This document shows positions 889 to 28,836 of a stretch of DNA of 64,000 nt, piece by piece. The translations under genes were made by a program, and so were the position numbers. Numbering within the stretch: position 1 is the stretch's first letter; the number at the start of each line of letters is the position of its first letter. Source of the stretch: Bacteriovoracales bacterium (lineage in GTDB: Bacteria > Bdellovibrionota > Bacteriovoracia > Bacteriovoracales > Bacteriovoracaceae); the NCBI GenBank assembly GCA_028346125.1, contig JAOMEV010000003.1, forward strand, positions 1 through 64,000, read 5' to 3'. The notes under the pieces were generated by a model. The model ran no database searches and was not told the origin of the DNA. It worked only from the letters and a program-made list of their open reading frames with translations.

Positions 889-2862
889 ATGAAAATATTT
901 ATCTTAGGTCTCATTTTTTTTATAGGTTGTGCTCAAAAGAAAACTCTTAAGATAGAAGTTCCAGTAAGTTCAACGACACAATCAAAGGTCAAAAAAGTCC
1001 CATCTCAAATAGGGCAAATTACAGTTGATTTCCTAAGAATAAGGGAAAACCCCGACCTTAAAGCAAAAACTCTTTCTTTTTTTTATAAATATATGATGGT
1101 TAACATTTTAGAAAGGTCAAAAGTTAAAACGAAAATAAAAAGATCAAATCACTATTGGTATAGAGTTTCAAGAAAAGGCATTTCTGGTTGGGTGTTTGGT
1201 AGGTTTGTAGATTTAAAGTTAAAAAACAAAGGCCAAGACTTATTTAGAGGAAGTTCTAATATGGGGTGGTTTTTCAAAAGGTTTTCTAAATGTTACTCAA
1301 AAAAAACAAACCTTAAAAATTGTAACGTTCAGTTTTTCACTTTCAGTTTGGAAGATTATAGAAATTTAATTTCAGCGGCCAAAGAGGGAAATCTTTTGGC
1401 TAAAACTGCCCTTAAAAAATCTGCTGGAATTTTTTTTCGTAGGTATCCAAACGAAAAAAAGTTTCAACATTTAAAAAAAGGACTTATTGAAAATGACTTA
1501 TTGAAAATAATAACAAAAAATGATTTTAGCGAAGAAAAAAAATTAATTTTAAATAAAGTTAAAATTAACCCTAATTTTTTGAAACATATTCCAAATAGAT
1601 ATAAAAACGATGAAGACGTAGTCTTATCCGCCGTTAAAAAAAATGGAATGGTCTTAGAGTTTGCTTCAACAAGGTTAAAGAAAAATTTATTTTTGATCAA
1701 AACCGCATTGAGAGTAAGCCCAAAGGCCATAAAGTTTGTGAATCCCAAGTTAAGGAGACAAAAAAACTTATTAAAAATAATTACTCAGAAAATAATCAAA
1801 AAAGAAAGCTCAAAGGCCATAAAAGTAGTTGTGTCCAATTTAGACCAACAAAAAAAATCATTAGAGAGACGTTCTCCAAAAAGCATCAAAGAAGAATGCG
1901 ATAAAACATCCTGTTTTAACCTTGGGTTAAAAAAAGAAAAATCCAAAAATTTTCAGGCGTCAAAATTACTTTTTATTAAATCATGCGACTTAAACAATAG
2001 TGATGGGTGTATTAAAGTTGGCCTCCATGAGTTTTTGGCCGGAAATGATGAGGCTTCTCAAAAAATGTTAGAGAGATCATGTAAAATGCATTTTAGTTCA
2101 GAAAAATGTCTTGGCCTTGAAGATCTGGAATCAAAAAAATATGAAAAAATGGAACGGGCCAAAATTCTCGGGGCCATCTTTGAAGATAAGGCCCCTTGCA
2201 AAACATACACTTCATGTTTTAGTGATGGTAAGGGTGATGAAGAGTTAGAGTTGGCGATATTTTTTTTAAATAAATCCTGCATTTTTGAAAAGTGGAGCGC
2301 CTGCTCTCTTTTGGGAGACATCTATAAAAAGATAGGAAAAATTAGGAATGCAAAAATGTCCTATGAGAAGGCATGTGACCTCAAATACGCAAAGGGATGT
2401 AAAGAGCGTGGAAATATAGAATATAAGGATGGAAACTTTAACCTGGCAAAACACTTTTTTAAAAAAGGCTGCGATCTCCTCAAGGCTGGTGGGGGCTGTT
2501 ACAATTTGGCCTTTATTTTAGAAAATAAGGAAAACAATATTAGTGGCGCAAAAATGATCTATAAAAAACTATGCCTCTCCAATGTAGGCTATGGAGCGGT
2601 GAAAGGATGTTATCATTTGGGAGCTTTAAATCAAAAAGAAAATGACCTCCAATCAGCAAAAAAAAACTACAAGAGGGCCTGCGATCTTGGATATAAACTT
2701 GGTGAATTTTTTAATACCTTGGGCAGAACAAAAAGGAATTCCTTTTCTAAAATGTCCTGTTCTCATTTAGGAGAAATTGAAAGGCAATTAGGCAACTTTG
2801 AATCTTCAAAAATTGCCAATGAAAAGGCATGTAACCTTGGACTTCATGAAGCTTGTCTTTAG
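889..2862 (+). CDS. Lipoprotein with SH3b, DUF4116-like and Cys-rich Sel1 repeats
   Basis: A 657-residue lipoprotein: the N-terminus is a short hydrophobic signal ending FFIGC-A, a lipobox with Cys14. Residues about 40-110 look like a bacterial SH3 domain (VDFLRIRENP near its start, WYRVSRKGISGWVFGRFV near its end). Residues about 180-300 resemble the helical DUF4116 repeat region (repeated VLxAVKKNG/ALxxSPKAI motifs). From about 330 to the end run Sel1-like helical repeats of about 36 residues, each with paired cysteines (KACDLxYAKGCKERG type), as in disulfide-stapled Hcp-type Sel1 proteins. It probably sits in the periplasm as a protein-binding scaffold (inference). Its stop overlaps that of the convergent gene on the minus strand. 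Lysine content is very high. Confidence 0.8.
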   Translation: MKIFILGLIFFIGCAQKKTLKIEVPVSSTTQSKVKKVPSQIGQITVDFLRIRENPDLKAKTLSFFYKYMMVNILERSKVKTKIKRSNHYWYRVSRKGISGWVFGRFVDLKLKNKGQDLFRGSSNMGWFFKRFSKCYSKKTNLKNCNVQFFTFSLEDYRNLISAAKEGNLLAKTALKKSAGIFFRRYPNEKKFQHLKKGLIENDLLKIITKNDFSEEKKLILNKVKINPNFLKHIPNRYKNDEDVVLSAVKKNGMVLEFASTRLKKNLFLIKTALRVSPKAIKFVNPKLRRQKNLLKIITQKIIKKESSKAIKVVVSNLDQQKKSLERRSPKSIKEECDKTSCFNLGLKKEKSKNFQASKLLFIKSCDLNNSDGCIKVGLHEFLAGNDEASQKMLERSCKMHFSSEKCLGLEDLESKKYEKMERAKILGAIFEDKAPCKTYTSCFSDGKGDEELELAIFFLNKSCIFEKWSACSLLGDIYKKIGKIRNAKMSYEKACDLKYAKGCKERGNIEYKDGNFNLAKHFFKKGCDLLKAGGGCYNLAFILENKENNISGAKMIYKKLCLSNVGYGAVKGCYHLGALNQKENDLQSAKKNYKRACDLGYKLGEFFNTLGRTKRNSFSKMSCSHLGEIERQLGNFESSKIANEKACNLGLHEACL

Positions 2863-4592
2863 TCCCATGTGTTATTGTTAAGAGATTTCACCTTAAAACC
2901 ATAATTTCTCAAAACCTTTAAGGCCTTTGCCCCCTGTTTTTTATTTACCACATAAATCCCTATTTTAGCGTGATTTACCATGACTCCTTTAACTGCAAAG
3001 ACTTGGGCCTTAACATTTTCAAGACCTAAGTAGTAAGCAATATTTTCTTTGATATAAAATTCGTCTTGAAAATTAAGATCGGCCATATAATCTTTACCAA
3101 AAAGGTCTAGGTTGGAAATCTGAAAAGATTTTTTTATCTTAAGTTTTAAAGGCCTCCCCCGACTGTTTTTAAATCTCAATGGGAGTTTTTTTTCATTGTA
3201 AACACTCAAAACATCTTTTGGTCTTAGGTAGGGGTTCCTTTCCCCCGGCCAATCTGAGTGTGGTATATAATCGATGGGGGACCAAATAAAATCAGGATGA
3301 GTGTGATTAAGAGCAGAGTACTTTTCTGCTCCTTCTTCTCCATCATAAAGGTAATTTTCGGGGTTTTCTTGATGGTCCCAAATCCCACCAACAATTTTTC
3401 CCACGGATTTAACGACAGTTTCAGAATCCATGCGAAGTGGTTTATCAAAAAACAACTTAAACTTTAAAAGCCTCCCATCATAATGTGTAATCTCTTGGTT
3501 CTTCCCCCAATGAAAGTCCATTTTCCCTTTCCAAATATCCTCTACTTCTTCAGTATCTTTAGTTTGCTTATAAATATTAAAAGGAAGGCCTATTCCCCCC
3601 TCTTCAACTTTGTCATCACCCCAAAAAAGTTTCATTCTTAAAGATACCGGATAAATTTTTCTACCTGTTTTATTATCTTTTTCAGCAGGATGAATATCAT
3701 CACTCCTTATGGGAAGAATTCTATAACCTGCAACTGGTTGATTCCAGACCTCATCTCCTGTGAAACGATCTATCGCAAGGCCTTGTTTCATAACACCCAT
3801 AAAATTTGTAAAAAGAAGAAAAAAGGTTTCAGGAGAAGGGTCCCAAAACTTTTCATACTGAGAAATTCCCTCTTCATCAGATTCCTTTGCCAACTTGGAT
3901 TTAGGTTTTAAAACCCATTCATTTGTTTTACTTGTCGCGGGAACATTATACCCTTCTACAAAAATATTGTGCTCCATATAGATGGCCGTAAGAAAGGCCT
4001 TTTGATCTCTCACACCAAAAATAATGGATTTTCCATTGTTAGGATTAGAGGCCTTCAAAGACGCTCTCGGTTCAACTTCTTTTATCGCCGCTGCACTCCA
4101 AGCATTACAGTGTCCCCACCAGCCTAAACACCCTTTATAAATACCTGGGTCATCTGGATTATTTATTTTAACGGTTCGACATGAGTGCTGATCTCTCTCA
4201 AAAGTCGCCGAAGGATAGAGAACCTTAACCTTTTGGTTTTTTTCCAAATCTTCAACAAAACGTCCCCAATCTTCCGGTCTTACTTGTTTTTTCTCACTCA
4301 TCAGCTTTTTGGCCTCCCCTTTATCGGCCAATCTTAGAAAATCATCCCACTTTTCAGCAGGAGAAGTTCCCGGTATAAAAAGTTCCGTTTTTCTATCCCA
4401 ATCCGGTTGTGAAATTCCATCATATTCAAAAGTCCAATAGCTCGCTGGCCAGGGTATATTTGCAGGCTGTCCCATTCGGGCCTTATTAAAAAGGTATTTA
4501 AAATTACGGTTTGCAACTTCAAAGGGCCGTTCATCCGAAGACCAGGAAGATGCACATAAGGTCAAAAGAAGAATTAAATAAGTTATTTTCAT
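2859..4592 (-). CDS. Secreted transglutaminase-elicitor-like protein
   Basis: Start set at the ATG at 4592, which has GGAG six bases upstream; the frame could extend to a GTG at 4604. The protein has about 577 residues with a cleavable signal peptide (KITYLILLLTLCASSWS). A PWPASYWTFEYDGIS segment near residue 45 and GWWGHCNAWSAAA around Cys162 match the layout of the oomycete/bacterial transglutaminase-elicitor family, where that Cys is the nucleophile. The family crosslinks Gln to Lys or acts as a related cysteine enzyme; the substrate here is unknown. It lies 11 bp after an upstream lipoprotein gene, so the two form an operon. Fold assignment is good by motif; activity is inferred. Confidence 0.7.
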   Translation of the reverse strand: MKITYLILLLTLCASSWSSDERPFEVANRNFKYLFNKARMGQPANIPWPASYWTFEYDGISQPDWDRKTELFIPGTSPAEKWDDFLRLADKGEAKKLMSEKKQVRPEDWGRFVEDLEKNQKVKVLYPSATFERDQHSCRTVKINNPDDPGIYKGCLGWWGHCNAWSAAAIKEVEPRASLKASNPNNGKSIIFGVRDQKAFLTAIYMEHNIFVEGYNVPATSKTNEWVLKPKSKLAKESDEEGISQYEKFWDPSPETFFLLFTNFMGVMKQGLAIDRFTGDEVWNQPVAGYRILPIRSDDIHPAEKDNKTGRKIYPVSLRMKLFWGDDKVEEGGIGLPFNIYKQTKDTEEVEDIWKGKMDFHWGKNQEITHYDGRLLKFKLFFDKPLRMDSETVVKSVGKIVGGIWDHQENPENYLYDGEEGAEKYSALNHTHPDFIWSPIDYIPHSDWPGERNPYLRPKDVLSVYNEKKLPLRFKNSRGRPLKLKIKKSFQISNLDLFGKDYMADLNFQDEFYIKENIAYYLGLENVKAQVFAVKGVMVNHAKIGIYVVNKKQGAKALKVLRNYGFKVKSLNNNTWD

Positions 4593-4603
4593 TACTATCT
4601 CCA

Positions 4604-5530
4604 CTATAGTGAATTGGCCCCATTTCTTAAAACAGCAAAATACCTTCTTGTTTCTATCGTCGTAGGCCAGGCATTTCCTTCACACCATCCCACTCGAACC
4701 TTTCGTCCATAAAGGTCTTTATAGTGAGTTCTATAACCTTCTTCACACATTTTATGGGCAACATTAAACTTTCTCATTTGAGAAACAATAAAAGGGTGCT
4801 TCGGAACTTTTGTTGCCCCTTTTAAAACTTTTTTCCAATTTTTTCTAGCGACTGGAGAAGTAAAGTTCGGAAGGTCCACAGGAAAACCTGAAAGTCCCGA
4901 ATCTAAGGGGTAGAAGGGATTTAACTTAAAACTAACAATCCCGACTTCGCCATAATTTTTTCTTGCTTTAGGAACTCTAGCAATTTCATATTCCTGTCCA
5001 AAAGGACGTAAAGAATCATCTAAATATATCCTCATGGCGATCTTGTCGTCTTTTCTAATCCTACTTCTTAGAATCTTAGGGAAAGACTGCTTAACTTCAA
5101 GAACAAGACAATTTCTTTTTGAAGAAGAAGAAAAATTGTTTTGCGTGAAATACCTAAAGGCCCTCCATTTATCTTTTGAAGTTGCCAAAGAATAACATTT
5201 TCCAATCCTTCTCTTTTGGAAACGGTAAATCAAAGGAAAACCCCATTTAAGCTTAGAAAACTTTTTGTTTGGATACTTAAATGCCTGACCGGTTATTTTG
5301 GGAAAGACCATGACTTCAAAGTCTGTCGACAAACTTTTAATCCTTGGAAGGAGGTACTCAACTTCTTGAGATCTCTCAGTAAAAGATGCCAATTTCCGAC
5401 CTTTTTCATGACTCTCCATCCTAGAAAAGGCCTTTTCTAGTGCCAGCCTATAGGCCTTTCCAGAAGACTTTTTTTGTATAGCACAGCCTGTTAAAAACGA
5501 ACTTAAAAGAAGACAAAAAACGAGTTTCAT
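4604..5530 (-). CDS. Lipoprotein of unknown function
   Basis: A 308-residue lipoprotein: signal MKLVFCLLLSSFLTGC has a clear LTGC lipobox at Cys16. I do not recognise a catalytic domain. The body is rich in K, R and aromatic residues. The C-terminal 40 residues contain two cysteines (KMCEEGYRTHY and GWCEGNAWPTTIETRRYF) that could form a disulfide. Its stop is 11 bp before the TGase-elicitor-like gene, so the two products are probably made together, and it may be a partner, anchor or inhibitor of that enzyme (inference). An AGGG site precedes the ATG. Confidence 0.65.
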   Translation of the reverse strand: MKLVFCLLLSSFLTGCAIQKKSSGKAYRLALEKAFSRMESHEKGRKLASFTERSQEVEYLLPRIKSLSTDFEVMVFPKITGQAFKYPNKKFSKLKWGFPLIYRFQKRRIGKCYSLATSKDKWRAFRYFTQNNFSSSSKRNCLVLEVKQSFPKILRSRIRKDDKIAMRIYLDDSLRPFGQEYEIARVPKARKNYGEVGIVSFKLNPFYPLDSGLSGFPVDLPNFTSPVARKNWKKVLKGATKVPKHPFIVSQMRKFNVAHKMCEEGYRTHYKDLYGRKVRVGWCEGNAWPTTIETRRYFAVLRNGANSL

Positions 5531-18467: not shown

Positions 18468-20753
18468 TTAATCTGCATTATTTTCCAAACCAATATGTGA
18501 AACAGGTACTCCAAAAACTTTAAAACGATTAATTCCGCCATCTGGAAAGAGCCTTAAACGAACCTTCTTTGTCCTAGTTGTTTTGCAATTTATTCTCAAG
18601 CGGTTTCCGGCCCAAGGCTTGACTCTCATTTTTTCGGCCATAGGAACCCACTTACCATCAACCTCTCCATAAACATCAAGGTCGCGTGGGCTGTTGTTAA
18701 TAAAATAAGAAAAATCAAATTCAAGAGTATCAACATCACAAAGCTTTCTCAAACCTACGACAACTTCTTCATTATGATTTCCCCGACTCCGGCTTGACTC
18801 TAACCCATCTTCCATCCCAACAGGAGAATCTGAAGAAAGTATAAGATGGGCGGGTGAGTAATGCTCATCTGTACACGCTAGAACTCTTCCCCCATATTCG
18901 GCCGAAGAAACATCAACAGGTTTGGCCTTATTTATACACATCCAGCGAGTATCAATGACTTTTTGATCAAGCTCCTCGGCCTTAAGAAAAGCCTTTTCCT
19001 CTCCCTTTGGAATGATCGACTGACATTTTTCGATAGAAACGCCTTCCTTTTTAAGTGATTTTTGGACAGAATCCGGCAAGTCCTTAATTTCTTCACTTCG
19101 ATAAAGTCCTAGGCGAGAAATCCCACCATCGGGATATCCAGAAACAGAAAGTTTGCTCCAGGTTTTCCTTAATTCCTGTGGGATCTTAAACCAATGACTA
19201 GAATGTCCAAAAAGTTCCGTTTTAGATAACAAATATTCCCACTTTCGATTTTCTTCGTCCCATCCTCGAAGGTCTGCAAACTGGCAGTGATTACCATTAT
19301 GAAACTCCGTAGAAAAGTGGATTAAATCAAATTCACTCGGTGCTTTAAGAGTAAAAATGGCAGTTTCCTTATCTTGAGGATTATGTCTCTTACTCTCCCA
19401 ACTATCCATAATTTTTCCCTGTCTACCAAATTCATTCGGGTCAAATGTCGGACATCGATTACTAAAAAGGTTAGAGGCCCTGGCGAAGCTTTGATCTGTA
19501 CAATGTAAAATATTGGCCTCCACAGCTACATTTTTTTCGGACCACTTAGCAATTGCTCCTTGCCTAAAAGGCATTTCAGGGAGTACTTCTTGAAAATAAC
19601 GAAGAACCATATCTTTCAAAGATTTACTTACTATATCTTCAGGGTTCAACCCATCAGTCTCCAAAAAAGATTCTCCAAGATTGAGACCGTGCCAAGGTAT
19701 CAAAAGTTCCCTTGCGACAAAACAATTTAACTTCATTGCATTGTCACTACCATTACTTGCAATAACAAACCCCTCCCCCTGATTGGGGCCACTCACACAG
19801 CATACAAATAATCCACGAAAGCCATCATTGGCAGCATGATGGAGTGCGATACGATTCAATCCTGCTTTTGCAATGAAAATACCCAACCCAACTTTAGCAC
19901 CGATGAAATCGACACTTCCCTGACAACGTTCAGAGTGAAGCATGAGAACAGCTGTGTTGTGATTAATACCTCCCGAGCCTTCAATATCATGATAAGCATT
20001 AACCAGGTGAGACAAAAAAAGAGCATAAGAGCGTGTGGTACATTCGCCACCAGCGGCTAAAGCAGGAAATGTTAAGGCCCCTCCCTCAACAGGAGTTCCA
20101 TCATCATAATACCCTCTTGCAAATACTGGTGAATCGGTTTCCCTAGTAAAACGGAAATCTGAAAGGCCCATCCCATCAAGAAAAGGGCGCATCAACCTTT
20201 CTATAGATCTTTGACCTATTTCTTCAATAATATATTGTAAAAGTATGAAGCCCCCACCAGAAAATGAAAAGGTTTCTCCAGGCCTTCTAGAAATTTGAAC
20301 GACTGGATGTCCTCCTTTTCCCTGAAGAAGTTCAAGACAATTTGAAGGTTGGCCTAATCGTTCTCCTGTAACGTAACCCACATCTAAGGCAGTGTGATCA
20401 AGTAGCTGATCTATTTGAACCTGATTGGCCCATTCTGAATCATTCTCAGGCCCGGACTTTAAACGGAAAACACTTTTATGTCTGGACAAAATATCATTAA
20501 CTTTGGTCGTCAATGGAATATCTTTTTCCTCAAAAAATTGAATTGCATAAGCAGTTGCAATGACTTTGCTCATTGAGGCCATTTGGAAACGAGTAATTGG
20601 AGTAATTTTCGTATTTTTTGATGTATCAGATAGTCCCCAACTGTAGGTCTCACCTACACCACAGGGCAGACCTTTCAAACAGGTTACCGAAAGACCGGCC
20701 ACGTGACTTTGATTTAACATTGATTTAACTTTTTTCTCACTAAACAAACTCAT
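18468..20753 (-). CDS. Beta-lactamase-like / allantoicase fusion
   Basis: About 761 residues from the ATG at 20753 (AAGGAG six bases upstream; the frame extends further but without a site). Residues 1 to about 400 are a serine beta-lactamase-like/esterase domain: SMSK gives Ser60 and Lys63, but the usual YSGGG Tyr is Phe (FSFSGGGF); LHHAANDGFRG matches the third motif. Residues about 430-761 form an allantoicase with its two repeats (DSWESKRHN and LESSRSRGNHNE; SGYPDGGISRLGLY and LFPDGGINRFKVFG), converting allantoate to ureidoglycolate and urea. The next gene is ureidoglycolate lyase. No signal peptide is seen. The role of the hydrolase half is unknown. Confidence 0.85.
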   Translation of the reverse strand: MSLFSEKKVKSMLNQSHVAGLSVTCLKGLPCGVGETYSWGLSDTSKNTKITPITRFQMASMSKVIATAYAIQFFEEKDIPLTTKVNDILSRHKSVFRLKSGPENDSEWANQVQIDQLLDHTALDVGYVTGERLGQPSNCLELLQGKGGHPVVQISRRPGETFSFSGGGFILLQYIIEEIGQRSIERLMRPFLDGMGLSDFRFTRETDSPVFARGYYDDGTPVEGGALTFPALAAGGECTTRSYALFLSHLVNAYHDIEGSGGINHNTAVLMLHSERCQGSVDFIGAKVGLGIFIAKAGLNRIALHHAANDGFRGLFVCCVSGPNQGEGFVIASNGSDNAMKLNCFVARELLIPWHGLNLGESFLETDGLNPEDIVSKSLKDMVLRYFQEVLPEMPFRQGAIAKWSEKNVAVEANILHCTDQSFARASNLFSNRCPTFDPNEFGRQGKIMDSWESKRHNPQDKETAIFTLKAPSEFDLIHFSTEFHNGNHCQFADLRGWDEENRKWEYLLSKTELFGHSSHWFKIPQELRKTWSKLSVSGYPDGGISRLGLYRSEEIKDLPDSVQKSLKKEGVSIEKCQSIIPKGEEKAFLKAEELDQKVIDTRWMCINKAKPVDVSSAEYGGRVLACTDEHYSPAHLILSSDSPVGMEDGLESSRSRGNHNEEVVVGLRKLCDVDTLEFDFSYFINNSPRDLDVYGEVDGKWVPMAEKMRVKPWAGNRLRINCKTTRTKKVRLRLFPDGGINRFKVFGVPVSHIGLENNAD

Positions 20754-21022
20754 CATCAACTCCTTGAGCTCAGAAGGAAGGGCAAGAGATAATAAATCTT
20801 CCAAAACATACAAGCCTAAATAAACTGTGCAGGATATTATCACCTTGTTTATTCAAGGGTCAAGGTTACTAAAATTTTAAAGATACCTTTTTTGATCAAT
20901 AAGGTTGATTTACAGAAATTAGTTTAAAACCAAAACTCTGACAAAAAACATATGAAACTCTAAATTAACCTATTTAAAGTACCGAAAGGACTTATTAATA
21001 GTCACCATATTAAGTTGAGAAA

Positions 21023-24663: not shown

Positions 24664-27144
24664 TTGCTCTTGAATAAAATGAATTTTAAAAATATCTTTA
24701 AAGTACTTCTCCTTTTAAAAATACTTATAATTCTTTCCCCTTCATCTAATTTAATGTCTAAAATAATCGAAGGCGTTTTGAACCTTGAAACTCATAAATT
24801 TCAGGAAGGCGCTATATCCCTAGAGGGAAATTGGTTATTTTTTCATAACCAATTTCTTGACCCTAAAAAATTAATAAATGAAGAGATATTATCGAAAGGA
24901 ATAAAAATTAAAGTGCCTGGAGCATGGAGAAAACAGAATATCCAGGGCCTGGATCGATTTGGTTATGGAAGTTACCTTTTAAAAGTTAAAGGTATTAAAA
25001 AAAAGATGGATTTTGCCCTTAAAGTTAAAGATGTTGGGACAAGTTATAAAATATTTATTATAGAAAATAATAAAATTAAAATGCTTGGGGGCCTAGGAAG
25101 GCCAGGTGAAAAAAAAGAAACATCAAATCCTAAATATGGGACCTTTTTTTCAGATTTTTTAATAAAGGAAAAATCATTTTTTATTTTAATTCACATATCT
25201 AATTTTCATCATAGAGATGGCGGGCTTACAAACACTATAAAGCTAGGAGAAAAAAATAATTTACGTGATGAAATTGAAGGAATGAAATATAAAAGTTTTT
25301 TTACCCTTGGAATTTTTCTCATTATGGGTATCAACCACATTATTATTTTTTTTCAAAGAAGGGAAGATAAAGGGAGTTTTTGGTTTAGCATTTTTTGCTT
25401 TGTTATAGTTATAAGGTTTTTGTCTTTGGATTCTTACTTAGGAACCCTATTTTTTCCACCTGGGCCACTAGCTTTTAGTTTTAATTATAAATTTAGGTTC
25501 CTTACTTTTTTCCTAATTGTTCCGATATTTTGGAATTTTTTAAATTTTTTATTCGATAAATTCTTTCACGACAATCTCTTGAAAGGATTTTGGATTATAT
25601 CGCTTTCATTTTCAAGTATTACGATTATCGCACCGGTTTATATTTTTACGGAGTTGACGGAATTTTTTCAGGTTATCATTCTTCTATCCTCTGCTTATAT
25701 GATTATTCAATTAACAAGAGCCTCGCTTAAAAGTGTTACCTACGCTAATATTTGCTTGGCCGGTATTGTATTTTCAGTATTTGGAGTAGTCTGGGATTTA
25801 CTCATAGTTAACAAAATACTTCCACCTCCGCAAATTTCATTATTCACAGTAGCTATTTTTATTTTAATACAAAGTTATATTATTTCTAAAAAGTTCTCTA
25901 ATGCCTATAAAACGGCCGAAAATCTAAACATAAAGCTAGAAGATAAGGTTCAGAAAAGAACCAAAGAAATATCTGGTCTTCTAAATAACTTAGAAAGTGC
26001 AATATTCTCTGTAAAAAAGGATTTAAAAGTTATTCCCCCTTTCTCACAATATTCCGAGACTCTTTTTAAAAAAAACATTGAAGGGAAAAATATTTTTGAT
26101 TTTCTTTTTTTTAACATTGAAAAAGAAAGTAGAAAGTACACACAAGCAAATTTAAGTTTTCAATCAATTTTTAATGACGATGAATTAAATTATTCATTTA
26201 TTGAAGTGAACTTCCCACAAGATGTTATTTTAAGTGATACTGAAAGACCAGAAGGAAGAAAACTTAAAATTTCCTATTCGCCTATCTACGACAAAAATAA
26301 CCTTGTTGAAAGACTTATGTTTATCGTAGAGGACATTACGGAGTTTGAAAAGTTTTATCAAGAAGCTCAAATGGACCAACTTAGTTATAATTTTATAAAA
26401 GAAGTTTTAACCATTGAAGAAAAAGATAAATTAGCTGGCATCTTGGAAAATTCTATAAAAAGTGGTTTTGAGACGCTAGAAGACCTTCTTTCTCCCAAGT
26501 CTGAAACCGCTGGAAATGAGCATTTTTTAAAAATTTACAAGGCCATAATCGAAAAAATAACATCAGATGTAAAAATAATGCCAATTTTAAATAAAAAAAT
26601 TCATATAAAAACTGCTGACTTTGATTATATTTCTTTAATGGGAGAACAGGATTATGGTGGTAAAAAAGTCGAGGAGGAGACCAATTATCAGTTAGAAGTT
26701 ACAGACAAAATAAATGACATCATTGATTATCTGTTAATTTACGACAACGTTGTAAAGCTTTTCCACAGTGAACCATCTAAATATCCTTTTGAGGACTCTA
26801 TTCAAGAAAAAGTCCAAGATTTAAAGCTGTTACTTACTGGCCTATTTGAAAAAACCTTTCTTATCCAAGACACGAATAAAATTGATAAAGTTAGTCTCGC
26901 AAAAATTGCAAACTTAGCAAAGTCATATACAGACTTTGATAAAAAGATAGGCCATATTCAACAGAAGACTAAGTTTATTTCCTTGCTTTTGAAGGCGAAT
27001 AAAAAGGAAGAAGCGTCTAAGAATTTTTCCACTCTAGCAAATCTTTTTAAACAGATGCCTCCTCAGAATAAAATAAATGAAACTAGCCTTAACCAAAATC
27101 TAATTCTACCCTATAAAGAAATTTTAAACATAGAGCTGTCATAG
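24664..27144 (+). CDS. Kinase-less 7TM-DISM/PAS receptor (degenerate paralogue)
   Basis: 826 residues from TTG at 24664, or 821 from ATG at 24679; neither has a clear ribosome site. Signal/anchor helix (10-30), periplasmic jelly-roll domain (LEGNWLFFHN, GYGSYLLKV), seven helices (210-410), coiled coil and PAS (435-560, ending FIVEDITEFEKF) all match the large kinase. The region aligned with the first Hpt reads FLKIYKAIIEKITSD: Lys626 or its neighbours replace the phospho-His and the HTxKGxSR motif is gone. No ATPase domain follows; the protein ends in helical sequence. The gene is otherwise intact over 2.4 kb, so it is probably expressed as a non-catalytic receptor (inference). Confidence 0.8.
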   Translation: MLLNKMNFKNIFKVLLLLKILIILSPSSNLMSKIIEGVLNLETHKFQEGAISLEGNWLFFHNQFLDPKKLINEEILSKGIKIKVPGAWRKQNIQGLDRFGYGSYLLKVKGIKKKMDFALKVKDVGTSYKIFIIENNKIKMLGGLGRPGEKKETSNPKYGTFFSDFLIKEKSFFILIHISNFHHRDGGLTNTIKLGEKNNLRDEIEGMKYKSFFTLGIFLIMGINHIIIFFQRREDKGSFWFSIFCFVIVIRFLSLDSYLGTLFFPPGPLAFSFNYKFRFLTFFLIVPIFWNFLNFLFDKFFHDNLLKGFWIISLSFSSITIIAPVYIFTELTEFFQVIILLSSAYMIIQLTRASLKSVTYANICLAGIVFSVFGVVWDLLIVNKILPPPQISLFTVAIFILIQSYIISKKFSNAYKTAENLNIKLEDKVQKRTKEISGLLNNLESAIFSVKKDLKVIPPFSQYSETLFKKNIEGKNIFDFLFFNIEKESRKYTQANLSFQSIFNDDELNYSFIEVNFPQDVILSDTERPEGRKLKISYSPIYDKNNLVERLMFIVEDITEFEKFYQEAQMDQLSYNFIKEVLTIEEKDKLAGILENSIKSGFETLEDLLSPKSETAGNEHFLKIYKAIIEKITSDVKIMPILNKKIHIKTADFDYISLMGEQDYGGKKVEEETNYQLEVTDKINDIIDYLLIYDNVVKLFHSEPSKYPFEDSIQEKVQDLKLLLTGLFEKTFLIQDTNKIDKVSLAKIANLAKSYTDFDKKIGHIQQKTKFISLLLKANKKEEASKNFSTLANLFKQMPPQNKINETSLNQNLILPYKEILNIELS

Positions 27145-28836
27145 TTCACATATAAAACCTAAATTAGAATCACAAGATACATCGTTCCACCTTGGATATT
27201 TTTCCCAAAGGTAAATCTCAGCACAATCTTCGCCTTTTCCCCAATTGTTAGGCTCCCCTTTTGCCCAGAATTCATAATGTAAATTTGTTTTATTAACCCA
27301 AACCCATCTACCTTCTATATCAGAATCTGTGATACCAACCCACATTCTCCTTTTATAAATTTTCTTTATCCATTTTTGAACAGATTTGTACTTTATTTCA
27401 TCTTCAAAAGATGCCATTTTTCCCCCAAGTAAAGAACAGGAACTCTGAGCATCCTCAAAATTGGCCCCATCAGGACAAATAACATAATTATCAATTCGAG
27501 CGCAACGAATAAGGCCAACGCCGGCCAAACTTGTATATTTCTTACCAAATGGGTAAGTAACATTTTTTTCAGGTAAAAGTTCAACAGGAGTTTTCCCATC
27601 CGACCAAGGAGATGGGCGCTCCATAACAGGTAGCGGGTTTTGAATGAAATAAAGAGTAATTATTCCTATTACAAAACATAAGATAACACTTTCTTTTCTT
27701 TTAAAGCTTGGAAACCGCCTCCCATTTAAAAAATTTCCAATAAAAGTAGAACGTACAAAAGCATCGTAGGTTACTAAACAAATAAAAAAAACAATAATAA
27801 ATGAAATAATAAATTTAATCCAAAGTGCTACGTTTAAGCTTATAAAAAAAATAGGCATAAGGGGACAAATTGTAATATGAATAAGAAATATCCAATATGA
27901 TGAGTCTGAAACATAACGCCAAATTGGACTATCGGAGGAGCAATATTTTAAAAAAATACCAAGGAAACCTCGAACGAGTCCAATCAAGGCCATGGTTCCC
28001 AAAAATAATTTTACAGAAAACCAAAATACCATTTCCCACTGAAGAATGATCCCTTTTTTATAATCATAATCAACAAAAAGATGGTCTAAAGAAGAGTGAA
28101 AGTAAGAGGAAATCATACCTATGATTAAAAAAGGCCAAGGATTTTTCGTAAACGAAAAGAAGTCAACTTTTGTAGTATAAAAAAGCCAACCTAAAGAATA
28201 AAAAATTGCGTAGTAAGATATAATAAATAAATTAGGAACCCAACGACTATCGGTTGGGATGCTATCCCATTTAAAAAGAAGCCCCCATACAAAGTTGATA
28301 AGGCCAACAAAAATAAGAAAAGTCCATCCTCCCTCAAATATTCCTTTTAACTTTTTTAAAACATACGGGGATGAATAAGAAAAGCGCTCTATCCATAGCA
28401 CAATTGTGAGTACAAAAAATATTACAAATATAAGATAGTAAAGGAACCAGAGATGCATAAGATCCGTCAAAGGAAAAAGGTTTTCAAATGTGAAGCGGAC
28501 GGAATATTCTAAAGGGTTGGCAAAGCCTCGATTAAACCCATCAAGATAACTCCAAAATAAGGTATTGATTGGGTAAAGAGTAAAAACGAAAACAAGAAAA
28601 GGAAGGCACAATCGGTGAATTCTATTTTTCACCATCATTTCAACGCCCCGTCTATACCATAAAAGAGCTCCAAAATATCCGGATAAAAGAAAAAATCCTG
28701 GCATTCGAAATGTATGGATAGAATCAATTATTTTGTCAAAACCATAAACGACGGCCGTATGAAGAACGACGCCCAGGATCATTAGAACGGCCCGATAAGT
28801 ATCAAGGCCATGCATTCTTTGATTTTTATTTTCCAT
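27139..28836 (-). CDS. Acyltransferase-3 fused to a C-type lectin domain
   Basis: 565 residues. Residues 1 to about 400 are an OafA-type membrane O-acyltransferase with about ten helices; HGLDTYRAVLMILGVVLHT carries the N-terminal Arg/His and FRMPGFFLLSGYFG the second Arg motif. Near 385-400 a final helix leads to an exported tail. Residues about 435-565 are a C-type lectin fold: four canonical Cys (SSCSLL, EDCAEI, VSCDSN, FICEL), plus an extra N-terminal pair, WVGITD, the EPN sugar motif (GEPNNWG) and WND (RWNDVSC), so all usual Ca2+ and mannose-type ligands are present. The tail probably binds glycan while the membrane part acylates a polysaccharide (inference). The last six bases overlap the convergent gene. 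Confidence 0.9.
   Translation of the reverse strand: MENKNQRMHGLDTYRAVLMILGVVLHTAVVYGFDKIIDSIHTFRMPGFFLLSGYFGALLWYRRGVEMMVKNRIHRLCLPFLVFVFTLYPINTLFWSYLDGFNRGFANPLEYSVRFTFENLFPLTDLMHLWFLYYLIFVIFFVLTIVLWIERFSYSSPYVLKKLKGIFEGGWTFLIFVGLINFVWGLLFKWDSIPTDSRWVPNLFIISYYAIFYSLGWLFYTTKVDFFSFTKNPWPFLIIGMISSYFHSSLDHLFVDYDYKKGIILQWEMVFWFSVKLFLGTMALIGLVRGFLGIFLKYCSSDSPIWRYVSDSSYWIFLIHITICPLMPIFFISLNVALWIKFIISFIIVFFICLVTYDAFVRSTFIGNFLNGRRFPSFKRKESVILCFVIGIITLYFIQNPLPVMERPSPWSDGKTPVELLPEKNVTYPFGKKYTSLAGVGLIRCARIDNYVICPDGANFEDAQSSCSLLGGKMASFEDEIKYKSVQKWIKKIYKRRMWVGITDSDIEGRWVWVNKTNLHYEFWAKGEPNNWGKGEDCAEIYLWEKYPRWNDVSCDSNLGFICEL

Follow-up and report, generated by a model that had tools for sequence, protein, structure and literature searches.

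What might a bacterial membrane enzyme predicted to acylate glycans do with a C-type lectin at its end? The question is raised by one gene, at 27139-28836 on the minus strand, of the 64,000-nucleotide stretch of contig JAOMEV010000003.1 analysed here (hereafter the window), which comes from an incomplete metagenome-assembled genome (MAG; 68% complete) of an uncultured relative of predatory marine bacteria, in the Bacteriovoracaceae/Halobacteriovoraceae group (Bdellovibrionota, Bacteriovoracia). The gene is a single open reading frame (ORF) with an ATG start and encodes a protein of 565 residues, in which an AT3 acyltransferase domain is followed by an eleventh transmembrane (TM) helix, a linker and a C-type lectin domain. 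Here, I show that this fusion is genuine and that it arose once, in one genus; on balance, the evidence leans towards a glycan acyltransferase whose lectin would tether the acceptor glycan in the periplasm, its sugar preference changing between species.

Origin and distribution of the fusion

The original prediction for this locus had delimited the ORF as above and had proposed that it joins an acyltransferase to a lectin. A Pfam search of the protein places Acyl_transf_3 (PF01757) at residues 9-357 (78.1 bits against a cut-off of 31, E 8e-22) and Lectin_C (PF00059) at the C-terminus, residues 458-564 (72 bits against 22.6, E 8e-20), both far above their cut-offs; besides AT3 the search finds only Lectin_C, and no SGNH domain. 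The fusion is neither a product of chance nor a chimera of the MAG, since the same full-length protein is encoded by two more members of the genus, UBA7317 (Bacteriovoracaceae bacterium; 57% identity) and SP87 (Halobacteriovoraceae bacterium; 45% identity), and hence in all three genus genomes (68-85% complete), in each of which it is the sole AT3 at E<=1e-5. The lectin part has a GC content of 35%, near the 33% of the AT3 part, and therefore shows no sign of recent import.

Across the class, AT3 proteins of this type occur in 12 of 129 genomes, the nine others having AT3-only proteins that stop at the end of the domain. Across the phylum (369 genomes), Lectin_C is scarce, occurring in 11 genomes, no other AT3-lectin fusion was found and, among the matches listed, Lectin_C coincides with AT3 only in the three members of the genus. 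The nearest AT3 relatives, in the family and on plasmids, are about 370-430 residues long and end where the AT3 domain of the fusion ends, so that TM11, linker and lectin may be regarded as an added module. The fused AT3s form one clade (99/99), and the fusion has a single origin. A scan of genome contigs, made with a pair of peptide patterns taken from the N-terminal region of AT3, returned only two genus members and, at a distance, two partial matches to AT3; AT3-lectin fusions that arose independently elsewhere would escape it. An origin from phages or plasmids was rejected, for there was no match in phages and none among viral contigs, and plasmids and two more distant contig loci gave only AT3-only or lectin-only partial matches.

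With the exception of its helix, the added module is conserved much as the enzyme is. The AT3 domain shares 59/46% identity with its two orthologues, the linker 59/44% and the lectin 55/44%, against 17/17% for TM11; at codon positions 1 and 2 the lectin is conserved about as well as the enzyme, and conservation of second codon positions extends over AT3, linker and lectin and is missing in TM11. Lectin and linker are thus under selection about as strict as that acting on the enzyme, and helix 11, given its low identity and unconserved second positions, is retained only as a hydrophobic span, a pattern in keeping with a functional lectin for which TM11 is no more than an anchor.

The common bacterial AT3 architectures are AT3 alone, AT3-SGNH and AT3-alanine racemase, N-terminal NRF domains being found in animals (PMC9558356, PMC12423673). 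Neither an AT3-lectin fusion nor a paper naming both Pfam families was found in the literature searched, in agreement with the original prediction that no fusion of this kind had been described, though databases may contain uncharacterised proteins of the same architecture.

An OpgC-like acyltransferase domain

The AT3 membrane domain (residues 1-375; 27712-28836, minus strand, as for all features of the protein below) has MdoC/OpgC as its closest named subfamily (NCBIfam PRK03854, 114.7 bits over residues 3-375), with a score so far under the equivalog cut-off of 338 that the protein is not OpgC itself. The "OafA-type" label first given to it has to be abandoned, the domain being OpgC/MdoC-like and devoid of SGNH. 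The motifs of AT3 enzymes, defined in earlier work as R-x10-H in TM1, DxxR, and RxxR on the cytoplasmic side of TM3 (PMC9833829, PMC12423673), are intact in an alignment of 15 homologues that includes E. coli OpgC: R15-x10-H26, preceded by D12xxR15 (28759-28794), is invariant, and R72xxR75 (28612-28623), H128-L-W130 and H320 are in place. D12, R15, H26, R72 and R75 are present in all three orthologues.

The subfamily and all of these residues (D12, R15, H26, R72, R75, H128-L-W130 and H320) are shared with E. coli OpgC/MdoC, the succinyltransferase of osmoregulated periplasmic glucans (OPG). OpgC, however, has 385 residues, stops after AT3 and carries no lectin; moreover, opgG (MdoG) was not detected in the three fusion genomes (search of G000-G002, G004 and G009, with a positive E. 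coli control), which are 68-85% complete, and on this ground OPG succinylation was rejected. The reading of the protein as one of the inner-membrane O-acyltransferases of glycans in the AT3 (TmAT) superfamily, predicted to transfer acyl groups to a sugar, is, taken jointly with the proposed tethering role of the lectin, reasonably probable.

A predicted calcium-dependent sugar binder

The lectin domain (residues 442-565; 27142-27513) was modelled with AlphaFold2 from the lectin segment and 13 lectin sequences from loci of this analysis, with a predicted local distance difference test (pLDDT) of 91.3 and a predicted template modelling score (pTM) of 0.84. A Foldseek search of the PDB with this model matched 528 chains at E<=1e-3, among them mannose-binding protein A (MBP-A, 2msb; TM-score 0.82/0.90, 1.8 A, 32% identity), collectin-11 (9srk; 0.85, 2.0 A) and mannose receptor CRD4 (7l66; 0.85, 1.8 A). 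Structure prediction, named at the outset as a possible source of refutation, thus returned the C-type lectin fold and matched it to solved C-type lectins.

The five ligand positions of Ca2+ site 2 (E528, N530, E536, N551 and D552) are all canonical, and three of them, E536, N551 and D552, do not vary among the three orthologues. The EPN sugar-specificity motif (residues 528-530; 27247-27255) and the WND Ca2+-ligand motif (residues 550-552; 27181-27189; invariant in the three orthologues) are both present, as the original prediction had noted, with the full set of ligands intact. The four canonical cysteines that it counted are in fact six (C445, C454, C467, C538, C555 and C563), invariant in the three orthologues, and their set fits two conserved disulfides plus an N-terminal pair, the bonds being predicted from sequence; C445/C454 is presumably the additional pair typical of the long form of the C-type lectin domain. 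Fold, disulfide cysteines, EPN and WND are shared with MBP-A, the other collectins and mannose receptor CRD4 (TM-score 0.82-0.90; 1.8 A to 2msb), but those are secreted or receptor proteins of animals, whereas here it is a bacterial membrane enzyme that carries the lectin. The domain is therefore predicted to bind sugar in a Ca2+-dependent manner. A C-type lectin fold was already known from a related predatory bacterium, in the mosaic adhesive trimer tip Bd2740 of Bdellovibrio, which differs in being a secreted trimeric fibre tip with no enzyme and with its Ca2+ motif lost (PMC10769870).

The sugar-specificity motif is not the same throughout the genus. Where the window protein has EPN, both orthologues have QPD, with WND and the middle Glu unchanged, residues 528 and 530 thereby switching as a matched pair from E/N to Q/D. 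In animal sugar-binding lectins, EPN is the mannose-type and QPD the galactose-type signature (PMC5379193). Should this rule hold in bacteria, orthologous enzymes of one genus would bind different sugars. Residue 532 is aromatic in the three orthologues (W, W, Y), at the position at which engineered MBP gains affinity for galactose from a Trp. Since EPN lectins such as SP-D also bind heptose of lipopolysaccharide (LPS), inner-core LPS may be put forward, as a speculation, as one candidate ligand.

Topology of the C-terminal module

An extra hydrophobic span, the eleventh TM helix, lies at about residues 380-402 (27631-27699), and the loop just before it holds five K/R and no D/E; hydropathy is compatible with 10 + 1 TM helices, the full-length AlphaFold2 model (three orthologues) reaching a pLDDT of only 40. 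Given the N-in topology of AT3, an eleventh span after a K/R-rich loop would place the lectin in the periplasm, so that hydropathy and the positive-inside rule favour the exported tail of the original prediction over a cytoplasmic one. The span is followed by a proline-rich conserved linker of about 40 residues, predicted to be periplasmic (residues 403-441; 27514-27630; NPxPxxERPSPW..LLP..V.YPF) and present, among 124 relatives, only in the three fusions. The same plan, namely AT3, an 11th TM helix and a linker to a periplasmic domain, is that of the AT3-SGNH enzymes OafA, OafB, OatA and PglI (PMC9558356, PMC9833829), from which the fusion differs in that its C-terminal domain is a C-type lectin, not a catalytic SGNH hydrolase fold, and its AT3 is OpgC-like.

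A lectin that may hold the acceptor glycan

In the proposed mechanism, AT3 would draw an acyl group (either acetyl or succinyl) from acyl-CoA in the cytoplasm and deliver it to a sugar in the periplasm, while helix 11 and the conserved linker would keep the Ca2+-dependent lectin near the periplasmic mouth of AT3. There the lectin would bind one of the sugars in the acceptor glycan, for which a glycan of the cell itself, lipid-linked or of LPS type and not yet exported, is the most plausible candidate; the bound glycan would stay near the active site, conferring higher selectivity or processivity. The lectin would thus sit where SGNH sits in AT3-SGNH enzymes, recruiting substrate instead of catalysing; as a precedent, the periplasmic part of these enzymes restricts the choice of acceptor (PMC9558356). 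I hold this mechanism as a whole to be slightly better than an even bet. Along the same line, the original prediction had suggested that the lectin may recognise the polysaccharide being modified.

Several points weigh against such a role. No glycan-assembly cluster adjoins the gene within the window; OpgC-type enzymes are expected to work without a lectin, and the need for one is not obvious; the N-terminal receptor found in one orthologue (see below) suits a sensing role as well; and, the full-length model being unusable at its pLDDT of 40, the topology comes from hydropathy and the seating of the lectin on AT3 is putative.

By what means AT3 enzymes select one periplasmic glycan over another is a question that the field has yet to settle (PMC9558356). 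In the fusion the preference of the lectin would be readable from three residues, which differ between orthologues, making the question of acceptor choice directly testable. Moreover, a predicted Ca2+-competent C-type lectin would here serve in the periplasm and be coupled to an enzyme, a further use of such domains in bacteria, in contrast to Bd2740, an adhesive fibre tip without a Ca2+ site.

Possible alternatives: sensing, non-sugar ligands and prey

Instead of tethering a substrate, the lectin might be a sensor, a periplasmic sugar bound to it opening or closing AT3, which would make the protein a ligand-gated acyltransferase; this is possible, yet I consider it unlikely. The idea is kept alive mainly by the orthologue of SP87 (G002; L026:8717-11635), a protein of 973 residues in which a whole 7TMR-DISM receptor (7TMR-DISMED2 and 7TMR-DISM_7TM) lies in frame ahead of AT3 and Lectin_C. 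AT3 takes there the place of the cytoplasmic output domain, which in a related receptor of G001 is a histidine kinase, the membrane topology of the three parts would be compatible, and such receptors number 30-44 per genome of the genus. On the other hand, the receptor fusion concerns one orthologue of three, enzyme and lectin alone sufficing in the other two, and AT3 proteins are not known to be ligand-gated. SP87 has the start of the receptor a second time, downstream, and the fusion therefore probably derives from a duplicated receptor gene; misassembly was judged unlikely, for DNA identity between the receptor part of the fusion and this downstream copy is only 79%.

Just as tentative is a broader proposal, that of a lineage-specific class of lectin-programmed acyltransferases, in which the periplasmic lectin would choose the glycan and be switched between species by the EPN/QPD exchange in a protein conserved elsewhere, the receptor added in one species yielding a single chain that would sense one sugar ligand, bind another and acylate.

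Less likely still, the lectin may bind a protein partner or another non-sugar ligand and so serve to place the enzyme within a complex. Sugar binding is absent from many C-type-lectin-like domains. In Bdellovibrio Bd2740 the fold persists with the Ca2+ motif gone (PMC10769870). All three orthologues of the fusion, however, have canonical residues at the five positions of Ca2+ site 2, and the paired change from EPN to QPD points to a sugar.

Recognition of prey, the lectin binding a prey glycan during predation, had also been suggested and is very improbable, even though the genus belongs to a group related to known predators and Bdellovibrio employs lectin-like fibre tips on prey (PMC10769870). 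Since AT3 needs cytosolic acyl-CoA it must be in the inner membrane, and a lectin on a linker of about 40 residues would then face the predator's own periplasm, out of reach of the prey; predation by this genus is, besides, putative. This part of the original prediction hence fits badly, whereas its acyltransferase with an exported lectin stands. Finally, that the source MAG is only 68% complete might suggest a chimeric assembly or a decaying fusion with a functionless lectin tail, an explanation of negligible probability that is refuted by the orthologues: three distinct genomes carry the same fusion, at 45-57% identity, and keep its ligands and cysteines without change.

Neighbouring genes and other domain pairings

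The gene next to the fusion (24664-27144, plus strand) encodes a 7TMR-DISM receptor and meets it tail to tail, with an overlap of 6 bp. As the genome has 44 such genes, this neighbour is given little weight; it is weak functional evidence and possibly unrelated. The 7TMR-DISM family is expanded in the genus, with 44, 42 and 30 matches in G000, G001 and G002, respectively, five of them inside the window.

Some other domain pairings were noticed. In UBA7317, 1.7 kb from the fusion gene, a Transglutaminase-elicitor domain is joined to a C-terminal MVL mannan-binding lectin domain (L025:6743-8830); the window has a TGase_elicitor gene without MVL (2859-4604). An ORF of 791 residues at 18468-20843 (minus strand) combines, in an odd pairing, a beta-lactamase domain (residues 68-368) with allantoicase repeats (best at residues 443-581, E 1e-46). 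Lectin_C itself is found as a truncated match, with EPK/WQSED replacing EPN/WND, in a secreted protein (G000:C95, L027:8728-10044, minus strand, and L016:367-2436, plus strand) from the same genome as the fusion; the region preceding it is PLC-like by eye, and a similar protein is present in G047. In a genome of another family of the phylum, G309 (L011, L017-L024), nine Lectin_C domains lie in long proteins that also have repeats of the calcium-binding type.

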